Source: Deinococcales bacterium (GTDB taxonomy: Bacteria; Deinococcota; Deinococci; Deinococcales; JAAFIG01). Taken from it: DNA of 41,789 nt. The position numbers and the translations under genes are program-made. Numbering within the stretch: the stretch's first letter is position 1; each line of letters starts with the position of its first letter. The notes beneath the pieces are model-generated. The model searched no databases and was not told the DNA's origin. It saw only the letters and a list, made by a program, of their open reading frames with translations. Where the stretch lies: positions 1 through 41,789 of the forward strand of contig JAAFIG010000041.1 of NCBI GenBank assembly GCA_013298595.1, in the 5' to 3' direction. This document shows, in pieces, positions 8,930 through 14,593 of this stretch.

Positions 8930-11900
8930 GTGAACGAAGTTTTCTTTCGGACGTGTTTTGACTCGGGTACTTGGACTCGAGGGCGTGGTGTGCGTTCTCG
9001 AGTCCAAAAAGTGCAATTGGATGCTGATCATGACTTAACAGGTATGGTGCTTGGTTCTAACGATGAAAAGTACCGTGTACGAGTGGCTTTTATTTATAAC
9101 AATGGTGTTTTGGATGATGTTGATGGTGATTGTACTTGCCCGATCAGTTGGAATTGTAAACATGTTGTGGCTTTGCTACTCGAGGGCTTATCGCGGGGTG
9201 TGCTCAAAGATGATTTTGCTGAAACCCCTGATGTATTGGCAAAATTAAAGGTGTTGAATGCTGCTAAATCTGCGCCAAAAGAGGATGCTCGAGTGACTGA
9301 ATTGCCTAAAGCTTCTTTGAATAAACCTTTGGATTTATGGTTAGCTAACGCTCCAGTAGCAGGTGCGGCAACAACTGCGGCAGTGAATGTGAAACAAACC
9401 TTGTTGTTTTCATTATTTGTAGCCGATGGTAAAACCCAGTGCCAATTGTGGGTGGCAAAAATATCGAGTAAAGGGGCTTTATCCGATATCAAAGCCTATA
9501 AAGTGCCACATAGTCTCGAGCAATTACCACAGTACGCTAAGCGTGATCGGGCATTGATTCAGGCATTACAAGCTGCCCAAGTTCGGTCGTATCAATTGGA
9601 AACGAATTTTGCACTCGAGGATGGCGATTTAGCTGGGTATCTGCTGGAGCGTTTAATTAAAACTGAACGTTGTTATTGGCTTGCGCCTCAAGAACATGTG
9701 CTTTTAGCCCTTAGTGAAGCCCGAGCGGGTTTGCCCACTTGGAAAATGCAAAAAGATGGTTCGCAAATACCAGTTTTTGAGACATTGCCAACCAGTCATG
9801 CGGTTTTGCCATTAACGCCACCGTGGTATGTAGATACTGAACGTGGGCAATTAGGGCGTTTAGAGACCAATTTAGAGGCTAAAGCCGCTAAACATTTTGC
9901 CAGTTGCCCACCAATTAAACCCGAGATGATGTTTGCCTTTCGTGATGCACTACGGGCACGTTTTCCAAGTCTCCCCGAACCAATTGTACCCAATGCTCGA
10001 GAACTTGATGTGTTGTGCCAACCGATTCTGACGTTAAAAACCATGCAGGCAAAACACACTTGGCAAACCGATTTGCATTACGCCACCCTCGAGTATCAGT
10101 ACGGAGAAACCAAAGTTGCCGAAGGCGATAAACGCGAATTGGTTTCTTATCAAGGTGATGTGCTCGAGCGAATTAAACGCGATGCCGATATCGAACGCAA
10201 TGCGATTATGAGTTTACAAGCTCTGAATTTTCGTAAAGCCATGCCAAATGCTGTGCCTCAAGTGCAACACGCTTGGACTTTTGGTTCGGGCAATGGTACC
10301 AGCGAAGCGTGGCTTGATTTCTTGCATCGTTTTGCACCAACGCTACGCGAACTGGGTTGGCAGATTCTCGAGGATACTTCGTGGGCGTTTCAGTTGGCAG
10401 AAATTTCTGATTGGTATGGCAGTGTTGATGATCGCAACGATTGGTTTGGTTTGGATTTAGGGGTGATAGTGGCAGGTGAACGCCTGAGTTTACTGCCGAT
10501 TCTTTCGGATATGATTGCGCGTTTACCCAAGGATTTTACCTTAGAAAAACTTAAAGCCTTACCCGAAAAACACGTTTTTTACACCACCCTAGCTGATAAG
10601 CGTATGTTGGCATTGCCCGCAGCCAGAATTCGAGCTGTGCTGGGTGTTTTACTCGAGTTATACGGCGACCGCCCCAAAGGTGTTTTGCGGCTCTCGATGT
10701 TTGATGCCGCTCGGTTGCTCGAGTTACAAGAAGCTTTGCAGTTACGTTGGCACGGAGCAGACCGATTACTGGATTTAGCCAAACGCTTACAATCCTTTGC
10801 GGGTATAGATTCTTTGCAGCCCCCCAAAACACTCGAGGCAACATTGCGTCCATATCAACTCGAGGGAATGGCTTGGTTGCAGTTTTTACGCGAATTTGAA
10901 TTAGCAGGTGTACTTGCCGACGATATGGGATTGGGTAAAACAGTGCAAGCTTTAGCCCATTTACTGCTCGAGCAAGAAGCTGGGCGTTTAAAGCAGCCTG
11001 CTTTGGTGGTTATGCCAACCAGTTTAATTACCAATTGGCGACTTGAGGCAACTCGTTTTGCACCAAGCTTAAAAATAGCTGTGTTACACGGACAATCTCG
11101 GGATCATAATAATCTCGAAGGAGCAGATTTAATTCTCACAACATATCCGATTTTGCTCAGGGATTTTGATAAACTCAAGAAAAAGCAATTCCACACCATT
11201 ATTCTTGATGAAGCCCAGTACATTAAAAATGCTAAAAGTAGCACCGCCCAAGCTGCCGGTGCCTTAAAAGCCAAGCACCGAATTTGCTTAACAGGCACAC
11301 CACTCGAGAATCATCTTGGTGAACTCTGGAGTATTTATAATTTTTTAATGCCAGGTTTTCTTGGTGAAGACAGCAATTTTAAACAAGTTTACCGCAACCC
11401 CATCGAACGCAGCGGCGACACAGCCCGCCGTGACTTACTTGCCAAACGAGTCAAACCATTTTTGTTACGCCGCACCAAACAAGAAGTGGCTAAAGAACTG
11501 CCCGAAAAAACTGAGATGATTGTGCCACTCGAGTTACAAGCCTCACAACGCGATTTATACGAAACCATTCGCGTAGCAGTTTCCGAACGTATCCGCGAAG
11601 AAGTAGCCAATAAAGGCTTAGCCCGTTCGCAAATTGTGGTACTTGATGCACTGCTGAAACTACGCCAAGCCTGTTGCGACCCACGCCTAGTCAAACTCGA
11701 GCAAGCCAAAACCGTGAAACACAATGCCAAACTTGAATGGCTTGAGGAAAACTTACCACCACTGCTTGACGATGGACGTAAAGTCTTATTGTTTAGTGCT
11801 TTTGCATCGCTTTTGGGGAATCTCGAGCAAACCATGAAGGATTTAAAAATTTCTTATTCCAAACTCACAGGCGAAACCAAAGACCGAGCCAGTCAAATCG

Positions 11901-12238
11901 AGCAATTCCAAAGCGGACAAACCAGTGTTTTTTTAATCAGCTTAAAAGCAGGTGGTGTGGGCTTAAATTTAACCGCTGCCGACACCGTAATTCACTTCGA
12001 CCCGTGGTGGAATCCGGCTGCCGAAAACCAAGCCACCGACCGTGCTCATCGCATTGGACAAACCAAAAAAGTATTTGTCTATAAGCTGATTACCCAAGGT
12101 AGCTTGGAACAAAAAATACTAGAATTACAGCAACGCAAAGCCGAACTTGCCAAAGGTATTCTCGAGGGCGGGCTAAGCAGCGCGGTAGCCCTCACCCAAG
12201 ACGATCTCAATCAATTACTGGCACCACTGGATGCTTGA
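8930..12238 (+). CDS. SNF2-family DNA-dependent ATPase with SWIM zinc finger
   Basis: The 1102-residue protein has a SWIM finger at ~64-76 (DGDCTCPISWNCKHVV, CxC then CxH), a long middle domain, and a C-terminal SNF2 engine. The helicase motifs are DDMGLGKTVQAL (~663), DEAQYIKN, LTGTPLENHLGELWSIYNFL, QAGGVGLNL-like (here KAGGVGLNL) and DRAHRIGQTKKVFVY. Such SWIM-SNF2 proteins are presumed to move along or remodel protein-DNA complexes in repair or transcription. It appears to stand alone, with no nuclease or methylase partner as in DISARM-type systems. It carries ~20 CTCGAG sites, 16 read as Leu-Glu and 4 as x-Arg. The start is GTG. Confidence 0.93.
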   Translation: MNEVFFRTCFDSGTWTRGRGVRSRVQKVQLDADHDLTGMVLGSNDEKYRVRVAFIYNNGVLDDVDGDCTCPISWNCKHVVALLLEGLSRGVLKDDFAETPDVLAKLKVLNAAKSAPKEDARVTELPKASLNKPLDLWLANAPVAGAATTAAVNVKQTLLFSLFVADGKTQCQLWVAKISSKGALSDIKAYKVPHSLEQLPQYAKRDRALIQALQAAQVRSYQLETNFALEDGDLAGYLLERLIKTERCYWLAPQEHVLLALSEARAGLPTWKMQKDGSQIPVFETLPTSHAVLPLTPPWYVDTERGQLGRLETNLEAKAAKHFASCPPIKPEMMFAFRDALRARFPSLPEPIVPNARELDVLCQPILTLKTMQAKHTWQTDLHYATLEYQYGETKVAEGDKRELVSYQGDVLERIKRDADIERNAIMSLQALNFRKAMPNAVPQVQHAWTFGSGNGTSEAWLDFLHRFAPTLRELGWQILEDTSWAFQLAEISDWYGSVDDRNDWFGLDLGVIVAGERLSLLPILSDMIARLPKDFTLEKLKALPEKHVFYTTLADKRMLALPAARIRAVLGVLLELYGDRPKGVLRLSMFDAARLLELQEALQLRWHGADRLLDLAKRLQSFAGIDSLQPPKTLEATLRPYQLEGMAWLQFLREFELAGVLADDMGLGKTVQALAHLLLEQEAGRLKQPALVVMPTSLITNWRLEATRFAPSLKIAVLHGQSRDHNNLEGADLILTTYPILLRDFDKLKKKQFHTIILDEAQYIKNAKSSTAQAAGALKAKHRICLTGTPLENHLGELWSIYNFLMPGFLGEDSNFKQVYRNPIERSGDTARRDLLAKRVKPFLLRRTKQEVAKELPEKTEMIVPLELQASQRDLYETIRVAVSERIREEVANKGLARSQIVVLDALLKLRQACCDPRLVKLEQAKTVKHNAKLEWLEENLPPLLDDGRKVLLFSAFASLLGNLEQTMKDLKISYSKLTGETKDRASQIEQFQSGQTSVFLISLKAGGVGLNLTAADTVIHFDPWWNPAAENQATDRAHRIGQTKKVFVYKLITQGSLEQKILELQQRKAELAKGILEGGLSSAVALTQDDLNQLLAPLDA

Positions 12239-12390: not shown

Positions 12391-12420
12391 AAAAAACCTC
12401 GCCTAGTGCGGGGTTTTTTT
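12391..12420 (+). terminator. Rho-independent terminator after the tRNA
   Basis: A 12-bp stem with A6 on its 5' side (AAAAAACCTCGC), loop CTAGT and complement GCGGGG followed by a T7 run. It starts 2 bases after the tRNA CCA. Confidence 0.9.
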
Positions 12421-12468
12421 ATGGCGAATAATTCGCACTCAAGACCAAACTCGAGACCCCATGAGTGC

Positions 12469-12499
12469 TTTACACATACCACTCATCTTGGTGTATCAT
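12469..12499 (+). promoter_or_regulatory. Possible glmS promoter
   Basis: TTTACA (12469-12474) and TATCAT (12494-12499) are 19 bp apart, a little long. They lie about 55 bases upstream of the ribozyme core. Confidence 0.3.
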
Positions 12500-12527
12500 T
12501 CTGTGCTGCGTCTGTTCGCAGCACAGA
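12500..12527 (+). other. Perfect 11-bp hairpin just upstream of the ribozyme
   Basis: TCTGTGCTGCG (12500-12510), loop TCTGTT, then the exact complement (12517-12527). No T-run follows. It sits about 25 bases before the predicted cleavage site and could cap the 5' end of the message or be an operator. Confidence 0.5.
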
Positions 12528-12551
12528 AAGGAAAATCGTATAAACCCAGGG

Positions 12552-12717
12552 AAGCGCAAGGTCTCGAGATGACTCGAGAACACGAGGTAGACGTTATCGA
12601 AAATAGGTGAACAAAATCACCAAAATCTGCGGATGCGTCTCGGCTGAAACTCCCAGCCGCCCGAACCAATAAGCACTCGGCAAAACTCGTTGCAAAACGA
12701 ACACAAACCAAAGTGCA
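12552..12717 (+). ncRNA. glmS ribozyme: glmS ribozyme (GlcN6P-responsive self-cleaving riboswitch)
   Basis: The leader of glmS holds the conserved glmS ribozyme core: AAGCGCA with predicted cleavage before G12554, ACGAGG, ACGTTATCGAA, GCGGATGCGTCT and CGGCTGA. Helices seen are P1, built from two CTCGAG copies (12563-12580); AGACG/CGTCT (12589-12593 with 12636-12640); GGTGA/TCACC (12606-12610 with 12617-12621); CGGCT/AGCCG (12641-12645 with 12655-12659); P4-like GCACT/AGTGC (12673-12677 with 12712-12716); and TCGTT/AACGA (12687-12700). In this RNA class glucosamine-6-phosphate is the cofactor for cleavage, and cleavage lowers glmS expression. Exact ends are approximate. Confidence 0.88.
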
Positions 12718-12730
12718 GGAAAAAAACCAG

Positions 12731-12749
12731 ACTCGAGACAAACTCGAGT
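12731..12749 (+). other. Hairpin of two CTCGAG copies before glmS
   Basis: ACTCGAG, a 5-base loop ACAAA, then CTCGAGT form a 7-bp stem between the ribozyme and the glmS start codon. It ends 23 bases before ATG. Confidence 0.5.
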
Positions 12750-12772
12750 GCTTATACGTATGAGGTTTTTTC

Positions 12773-14593
12773 ATGTGTGGAATTGTTGGATATATTGGTC
12801 AACGCAACGCAACAGATGTGCTGATTTCAGGATTATCAAAACTCGAGTACCGTGGCTATGACAGCGCAGGTGTGGCAGTGCATACCGGTGTGCAACTCGA
12901 AGTGCGAAAAAATGCAGGTAAGTTAGCAGTTTTGCAATCTGAGTTAGCCCAACAAAATTTATTTGGCACCCTCGGTATTGGACATACGCGTTGGGCAACA
13001 CATGGTAAACCCAACGATGTTAATGCCCATCCACATGCTTCCGAAGATGGTCGGATTGTGATTATTCATAATGGTATTATCGAGAATTACTTGCCACTCA
13101 AAGAGGCTTTAATCTCGAGGGGGCATATTTTTAAGTCCGAAACCGATTCGGAAGTATTAGCACATTTGATTGAAGAAAAGTACCAAGGCAATCTCGAGGA
13201 AGCTGTAAGAGCAGCGTTGTTAGAAGTTCGTGGTGCTTACGGCATTGTGGTGACACATCAGGATCATCGAGAAATTGTGGCAGCCCGAACGGTTTCGCCT
13301 TTGGTGATGGGTGTTGGTGTTAACGAAATGTTTTTAGCATCTGATGTGCCTGCGTTGCTGGCTTACACTCGAGAAGTGGTGTTTTTGCATGATGGCGATA
13401 TGGTGGTGCTGACCGATAACGCGTATAAAATTATGGATTTAGCGGGCAATGTTTTAACTCGAGATGTTTCGCATATTGATTGGGATGCCGAAGCTGCCGA
13501 AAAAGGTGGTTTTGACACCTATATGCTCAAAGAAATATACGAGCAACCTCAGGCATTGTCTAATACGTTACTTGGGCGTTTACATGACGAAACAGGCGAA
13601 GTGGATTTAGAACTGAATCTCGACCCAGCCAGCTTTAAACGCATCAGTATTATTGCTTGTGGTACAGCCTTTTACGCGGGTTTAGTTGGCGAATACTTAA
13701 TTGAACAACTCGCCCGAATTCCAGTGGACATAGATGTGGCTTCCGAGTACCGTTACCGCCAACCCCTTGTTTCAGAAAATACTTTAGCCATTGTTATCTC
13801 ACAAAGCGGCGAAACCATAGATGCCCTCGAGGCATTACGCGAAGCCAAAAAAGGTGGAGCAAAAACCCTAGGCATTATTAACGCCAAAGGCTCGAGCATG
13901 ACCCGCGAAGTCGACGATACTTTGTACATTCACGCAGGACCAGAAATTGGTGTGGCAAGCACCAAAGCCTATACCAGTATGGTCAGTGCCATGCTCATGC
14001 TGGCACTCTGGCTCGGACGCGCTCGAGGCACCTTAGATGCCAGCACAGGTGCAGAGCTGCTACGCAGTGCCAGAGAACTCCCACGCTTAGTCGAAGAAGC
14101 CTTATCCGAAACTCGAGTTGCTAACATCAAACGCATTGCCGAAAAATACAAAGATGCCCGAGATTACTTATTTCTTGGACGCGGAGTCAACAGCCCAACC
14201 GCTTATGAAGGCGCACTGAAACTCAAAGAAATTAGTTATATTCACGCTGAAGCCTACGCCGCTGGCGAAATGAAACACGGACCAATTGCATTAATAGACG
14301 AAAAACTCCCCGTGGTTGTGATTGCTACAGACAGCGTGTTACTCGAGAAAACCATTTCTAACATCCAAGAAGTCCGCGCTCGAGGTGGCAGAGTGATCGC
14401 AGTTGTATCCGATGGCGACACCGAAGCCAGCCGACATGCCGATGACATTATTATCGTACCAAAAGCCCATGAAATGGTCTCGCCAGTGGTCAATGCTGTG
14501 GCAATGCAACTCCTAGCATACTTTACAGCGACAGCACTGGGTAAAGACGTAGATAAACCACGAAACCTTGCTAAATCTGTGACAGTCGAATAA
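12773..14593 (+). CDS. glmS: Glutamine-fructose-6-phosphate aminotransferase (isomerizing)
   Basis: GlmS makes glucosamine-6-phosphate from fructose-6-phosphate and glutamine, the first step to UDP-GlcNAc and peptidoglycan. The 606-residue protein has the N-terminal glutaminase domain with nucleophile Cys2 (MCGIVGYIG, YRGYDSAG, HTRWATHG). Two SIS domains follow, with ACGTAFYAGL and SQSGETIDAL in the first and LGRGVNSPTAYEGALKLKE in the second, and the protein ends PRNLAKSVTVE, as is standard. A glmS ribozyme precedes it, so its product feeds back on its own mRNA. The start ATG follows TGAGG and a T-run. A strong terminator follows the stop. Confidence 0.97.
   Translation: MCGIVGYIGQRNATDVLISGLSKLEYRGYDSAGVAVHTGVQLEVRKNAGKLAVLQSELAQQNLFGTLGIGHTRWATHGKPNDVNAHPHASEDGRIVIIHNGIIENYLPLKEALISRGHIFKSETDSEVLAHLIEEKYQGNLEEAVRAALLEVRGAYGIVVTHQDHREIVAARTVSPLVMGVGVNEMFLASDVPALLAYTREVVFLHDGDMVVLTDNAYKIMDLAGNVLTRDVSHIDWDAEAAEKGGFDTYMLKEIYEQPQALSNTLLGRLHDETGEVDLELNLDPASFKRISIIACGTAFYAGLVGEYLIEQLARIPVDIDVASEYRYRQPLVSENTLAIVISQSGETIDALEALREAKKGGAKTLGIINAKGSSMTREVDDTLYIHAGPEIGVASTKAYTSMVSAMLMLALWLGRARGTLDASTGAELLRSARELPRLVEEALSETRVANIKRIAEKYKDARDYLFLGRGVNSPTAYEGALKLKEISYIHAEAYAAGEMKHGPIALIDEKLPVVVIATDSVLLEKTISNIQEVRARGGRVIAVVSDGDTEASRHADDIIIVPKAHEMVSPVVNAVAMQLLAYFTATALGKDVDKPRNLAKSVTVE

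Follow-up and report, generated by a model that had tools for sequence, protein, structure and literature searches.

glmS ribozymes are best known from Firmicutes. A leader of this kind in a bacterium of the Deinococcales therefore raises the question of whether it is such a ribozyme, how it came to be there, and what should be made of its P1 stem, which is built from two CTCGAG words. The leader lies in a contig of 41,789 nucleotides, analysed over its whole length and hereafter called the window. The reading that we favour, with a probability of about 0.9, is that of a divergent, vertically inherited Deinococcota glmS ribozyme acting in cis on the glmS mRNA, with CTCGAG having drifted into a free P1.

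To establish the identity of the leader, the whole window was searched with the Rfam glmS covariance model (RF00234), the check put forward with the original prediction. The model matched in full at positions 12542-12726 of the plus strand, with 42.8 bits against a gathering score of 37 (E = 7.6e-7). This match was the only one in the 4.58 Mb genome. The downstream open reading frame (606 codons) is GlmS according to a profile search (TIGR01135, 846 bits), and the ribozyme lies in cis, the end of its body being 56 nt 5′ of the glmS start. All strands of the P2.1/P2/P2.2 double pseudoknot core and of the A↓GCGC cleavage site (arrow, cut) are there and complementary. Fold and strand reading agree that the core helices are all intact, with a GNRA loop L4. 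The leader fold beats 200 of 200 dinucleotide shuffles (z = -4.07). Overall, the window has in common with the RF00234 family (Bacillus subtilis, B. anthracis, Thermoanaerobacter tengcongensis) the location before glmS, the cleavage site, helices P1, P2, P2.1, P2.2, P3 and P4 with a GNRA loop, and the ACGAGG and GCGGAUG strands. A glmS ribozyme with a conserved core in front of glmS, as originally predicted, is thus borne out. Its P1, TCTCGAG-ATGA-CTCGAGA, is present letter for letter, and the cleavage foreseen before G12554 coincides with our predicted scissile bond, between A12553 and G12554. The features of the locus are collected in Table 1.

Table 1. Features of the glmS leader and gene, in window coordinates (MFE, minimum free energy).
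Feature	Position	Strand	Basis
Promoter-like site TACACA-17-TATCAT, putatively for the glmS transcript	12471..12499	+	Consensus scan 9/12; G001 near-identical there
Strong hairpin opening the leader, 5′ of the cleavage site	12500..12527	+	11-bp stem, MFE fold
P0 5′ arm GGG, just 5′ of the cut; only 3 bp here	12549..12551	+	Pairs with 12660-12662, MFE fold
glmS ribozyme body (self-cleaving by family; cut predicted at 12553/12554)	12554..12716	+	RF00234
P2.2 5′ strand C2 G3 C4, A5 bulged, A6-U53	12555..12559	+	6-53 paired in 84/87 Deinococcota
P1, 7 bp, loop ATGA; arms TCTCGAG 12562-12568, CTCGAGA 12573-12579	12562..12579	+	Sequence
Two CTCGAG words in P1	12563-12568, 12573-12578	+	C12563-G12578 is the conserved 10-23 pair
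Core strand ACGAGG (positions 27-32)	12582..12587	+	12583-12585 pair with 12597-12599 (P2.1)
P2 5′ strand AGACG	12589..12593	+	Pairs with 12636-12640
Extra core hairpin GGTGA/TCACC, between P2.1 and P2.2	12606..12621	+	Insert relative to the canonical model, cmscan alignment
P2.2 3′ strand U53 G54 C55 G56	12628..12631	+	Strand reading
P2 3′ strand CGTCT	12636..12640	+	Strand reading
P3 hairpin CGGCTG/CAGCCG	12641..12659	+	RF00234 alignment, MFE fold
P0 3′ arm CCC, directly 3′ of P3	12660..12662	+	MFE fold
P4 domain, A-rich internal loop, GCAA (GNRA) tetraloop 12692-12695	12673..12716	+	RF00234 alignment, MFE fold
Hairpin of two more CTCGAG words, in the gap between ribozyme and start codon	12731..12749	+	Sequence, fold
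Shine-Dalgarno-like GAGG, 7 nt 5′ of ATG	12762..12765	+	Sequence
glmS, glutamine--fructose-6-phosphate transaminase (isomerizing)	12773..14593	+	TIGR01135, 846 bits

By analogy with the family, GlcN6P, the product of GlmS, would bind in the P2.1/P2.2 pocket as a cofactor. The RNA would then cleave itself at the predicted bond, and glmS expression would fall. Because a tRNA-Met(CAT) gene and a terminator-like hairpin with a T run (12395-12421, by eye) lie upstream of the leader, and because the leader is preceded by a promoter-like site, glmS probably has its own transcript. The window also encodes a Snf2-family helicase of 1102 aa (8930-12238), whose best match, the SCO1167/SCO6262 family, stays under the curated cut-off.

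The distribution of the ribozyme was studied in 111 Deinococcota genomes, which fall into one order and five families, f1 to f5, this genome being one of the four in f1; Deinococcus itself was not identified in this set. We infer that f4 holds Thermus and Meiothermus, f3 Marinithermaceae and f5 Trueperaceae. RF00234 matched 9 of these genomes at E 0.001, 4 of them over the cut-off. A first conclusion, that the ribozyme is limited to these 9, was dropped once the glmS leaders were read directly. Indeed, 87 of the 96 genomes with usable sequence upstream of glmS have, 5′ of the gene, a full set of core words of a divergent glmS ribozyme. In order, these are A↓GCGCA[AG]G, a stem P1, ACGAGG (or a similar sequence), a stem P2 and finally NGCGG with the P2 partner after it. 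Reading of the leaders thus suggests that nearly all Deinococcota have the ribozyme. When 20 leaders, 19 of them within the 87, were put through a permissive cmscan, none exceeded the gathering score and only three glmS matches fell under E 1. A textbook catalytic riboswitch would therefore be near universal in a phylum where the Rfam model mostly misses it, and surveys relying on that model at its cut-off understate the range of the ribozyme. Two other searches were set aside. A phylum-wide pattern search gave mostly chance matches in these GC-rich genomes, its reversed control being about equal, and gave way to direct inspection of the sequence in front of each glmS. Viral contigs with ACGAGG..GCGGATG (at least 120 stretches, with a loose pattern) were judged to be probable chance matches.

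The script that picked the strands in the 87 leaders used pairing in part. The five P2 pairs were mandatory, so that their formation in 87/87 follows from the selection itself. In P1, pairs 9-24 to 12-21 brought up to four of fifteen score points with a threshold of thirteen, so that P1 could partly fail and the leader still pass; pairs 9-24, 10-23 and 11-22 were nevertheless formed in all 87 leaders, by two to four kinds of base pair, as compared to shuffle means of 41-49. Pairs C2-G56, G3-C55 and C4-G54 were also found in all 87. These data bear on the possibility that the leader is a decayed ribozyme, kept merely as an untranslated region. The window and seven relatives score 29-49 bits with RF00234, against 56-150 bits for Firmicutes and Fusobacteria members, and the score of the window is far under that of Firmicutes members, as decay would predict. 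However, the core helices are all intact, P1 and P2 covary across the 87 leaders and the low score is common to the whole phylum, which makes decay very unlikely. The score probably stems from the model being based mainly on other lineages.

In order to follow the descent of the ribozyme, we examined the proteins of its hosts. The nearest solved structure to ribosomal protein L2 of the genome is that of Deinococcus radiodurans (PDB), in agreement with a position in Deinococcota. L2 of another genome of the phylum set, G009, is close to the L2 sequence most often deposited in PDB, which we take to be that of Thermus thermophilus. In a GlmS tree, the Deinococcota proteins form one clade with 100/100 support, in taxonomic order (main groups f1+f2, f3+f4 and f5) and apart from those of ribozyme-bearing Bacilli. 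By this tree, GlmS is vertically inherited, and the ribozyme appears to be an old resident of the phylum, not a stray transfer. The GlmS clade, together with phylum-specific features common to f1-f5, supports an ancestral ribozyme. The original prediction had considered this locus to be of interest for the spread of such ribozymes. The ribozyme does occur here beyond Firmicutes, but it is no stray, being near universal in Deinococcota with vertical GlmS. A recent acquisition from Firmicutes would fit the lineage from which the class is best known; given the phylum-wide presence with shared phylum-specific features and the vertical descent of GlmS, we consider it extremely improbable. As a separate observation, two records labelled Stenotrophomonas rhizophila (CP031730.1 and CP065518.1) match a ribozyme query of the Firmicutes type as well as the glmS start, with the same spacing as a Lysinibacillus plasmid. 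These records may be mislabelled.

The vertically inherited Deinococcota ribozyme differs from characterised members in helix P2.2. In the latter, C5 pairs with G53 and position 6 is bulged; the pair lies at a variable position (PMC7125110) and so is no membership criterion. Nine glmS leaders of Firmicutes and Fusobacteria, taken from plasmid records, served as outgroup, and 9/9 have C5 and G53. The window lacks this arrangement and has A5 instead, with A6 (or A5) pairing with U53. Across Deinococcota, A5 is invariant (87/87 leaders) and positions 6 and 53 are paired in 84 of 87 leaders, the shuffle maximum being 72. The pair is G-C in 58 (all f3, f4) and A-U in 26 (f1, f2 and most f5), whereas three f5 genomes, G072, G096 and G097 (leaders L335, L289 and L348), have an unpaired A-A. 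The script weighted the letters at positions 5 and 6 (AA, AG, CA, CT, CG) and left position 53 unweighted, so that the selection does not impose the number of 6-53 pairs. With A at position 6, U53 could pair with A5 or with A6; with G there, position 6 is the only possible partner of C53. The simplest reading of the sequences is that the P2.2 bulge has moved by one base, with A5 bulged and 6-53 paired. Because f3+f4 form one clade on the GlmS tree, the 6-53 covariation comes down to about one change within Deinococcota, placed on the f3+f4 branch, and to the difference from the outgroup.

A rearrangement of this kind has been inferred from the rescue of mutant G53C by A6G, position 5 then being bulged (PMC7125110). 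The same study found it puzzling that the 5-53 pair shows little conservation in the McCown 2011 alignment, given that its mutation lowers the rate about a thousand-fold. A phylum with an invariant A5 and a covarying 6-53 offers a testable explanation of this puzzle. The bulge-shifted P2.2 could be the natural form of what was seen there only through mutants.

Additional elements were also found in the core. The window has an additional core stem (Table 1), and G001 and G003 have similar hairpins there. By eye, an insert is seen between P2 and P2.1 in G002 and in the inspected leaders of f3 and f4, usually framed GATAA..GAAA. Also by eye, f5 leaders seem to have inserts both between P2 and P2.1 and between P2.1 and P2.2. 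The leaders of f1 and f2, and those of f3 and f4 that were read, show a P4 with a GNRA loop, G045 at least being doubtful; in f5 leaders P4 was not recognised by eye. Deinococcus-Thermus glmS variants with additional stems in the catalytic core and altered supporting substructures were reportedly described by McCown, Roth and Breaker in 2011 (in RNA). They share with the window the phylum and, reportedly, extra core stems such as that at 12606-12621. Already known are the ribozyme class and the variability of P1, as well as, reportedly, the Deinococcus-Thermus structural variants. The shift of the bulge may be new, as may a further helix, P0.

A helix across the scissile bond is unexpected, since almost no sequence 5′ of the cut is required by characterised glmS ribozymes. 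In most Deinococcota members, the bases just 5′ of the cleavage site are complementary to those just 3′ of P3. P0 reads AGGCGGG/CCCGCCT in most Thermus-like genomes, AGCGGA/TCCGCT in G022, TCGGG/CCCGA in G010 and TTCGGG/CCCGAA in G002. Among f5 members, CTCGAG/CTCGAG, GCGAG/CTCGC, ACGAG/CTCGT, GTCGAG/CTCGAC and TTGGG/CCCAA are found. In the window it is limited to three base pairs, also present in the MFE fold. The contribution of chance was evaluated by permuting the 3′ regions among species in 2000 trials and comparing the mean pairing. The observed pairing was reached in 0/2000 trials for f5 at anchor -4, in 1/2000 for f3+f4 and in 0/2000 for all sequences together, counts that are not probabilities since anchor -4 was picked after inspecting f5 and the permutation keeps composition, not relatedness. 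For f5 at anchors -2 and -3, 67/2000 and 477/2000 trials reached the observed value, which is marginal or a failure. P0 thus covaries across the phylum, but no excess was detected by permutation in the seven f1+f2 sequences, and the nine outgroup ribozymes had a mean of 3.2 bp, as had their permuted sets.

A genuine P0 would keep the 5′ fragment attached to the ribozyme once it has been cut. As compared to RF00234, the Deinococcota form is marked by a P2.2 bulge shifted by one base, by extra core hairpins and, in most members, by a P0 that pairs the bases immediately 5′ of the cut with those following P3; the Rfam model scores it low or misses it. That this form is an undescribed Deinococcota subclass, in which a bulge-shifted P2.2 goes with a covarying P0 tying the 5′ fragment after cutting, is a tentative proposal, somewhat more likely to be wrong than right. 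If it is right, product release, religation and the access of RNase J to the 5′-OH end would all change.

Finally, we considered the CTCGAG words of P1, which had been proposed to be a lineage-specific motif of the ribozyme. CTCGAG occurs 285 times in the window against 4.5 expected, and 27,159 times in the genome (G000, 4.58 Mb), that is once per 169 bp or 5,927 times per Mb. The reversed word GAGCTC has 15 copies in the genome. The same pattern is found in all four f1 genomes and in two f2 genomes (G005 and G006). Over 440 kb of the genome, the density is 5.96/kb in predicted coding DNA versus 5.75/kb in non-coding DNA, and 29 non-coding pairs of words lie at most 20 bases apart as compared to 27.7 expected. 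With the word everywhere at equal density, its copies in P1 say nothing special about the ribozyme. Moreover, among the 87 Deinococcota ribozymes, two words in P1 are found only in this genome (one of the four f1 members) and one word only in G004 (f2). P1 is TCTTGGGTT/AACCCGAGA in the same-genus relative G001, TCTCTG/CAGAGA in G003 and TCCCC/GGGGA in G002, in each case without CTCGAG. The proposed motif is therefore not upheld.

Since CTCGAG is self-complementary, a stem that is maintained and has the word in one arm will have it in the opposite arm too. The P1 words are best read as a genome-wide iterated palindrome entering a stem with a free distal part. P1 is a structural stem, and drift of the word into it is easy because the word pairs with itself. 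Selection of P1 for these words, by a protein or methylation system recognising CTCGAG and acting on the ribozyme or its DNA, would account for a word pair that supplies exactly the conserved 10-23 pair (C12563-G12578), and for the further pair that G000, G001 and G003 have after the ribozyme, ahead of the start codon. It is hard to reconcile with a word equally dense throughout the genome, with the rarity of words in P1 among f1 and f2 members and with non-coding pairs no commoner than chance, and we hold it to be very improbable. With drift as the preferred reading, the two-word P1 by itself means little: the free stem of a known ribozyme picked up the commonest word of the genome.

The word resembles HIP1 of cyanobacteria, also a palindrome present genome-wide in hundreds to thousands of copies per Mb (PMC4390886). 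The sequence repeated here is different, however, and that paper makes no mention of CTCGAG. In a partial literature search, we found no report of CTCGAG as an iterated palindrome in Deinococcota. The 12731-12749 hairpin scores as a terminator on the minus strand. Elsewhere, many intergenic CTCGAG pairs (L102-L121) lie within longer inverted repeats, such as AATCATCCCTCGAGCAATTGCTCGAGGGATGATT. From these pairs, CTCGAG seems to enter hairpin stems often.
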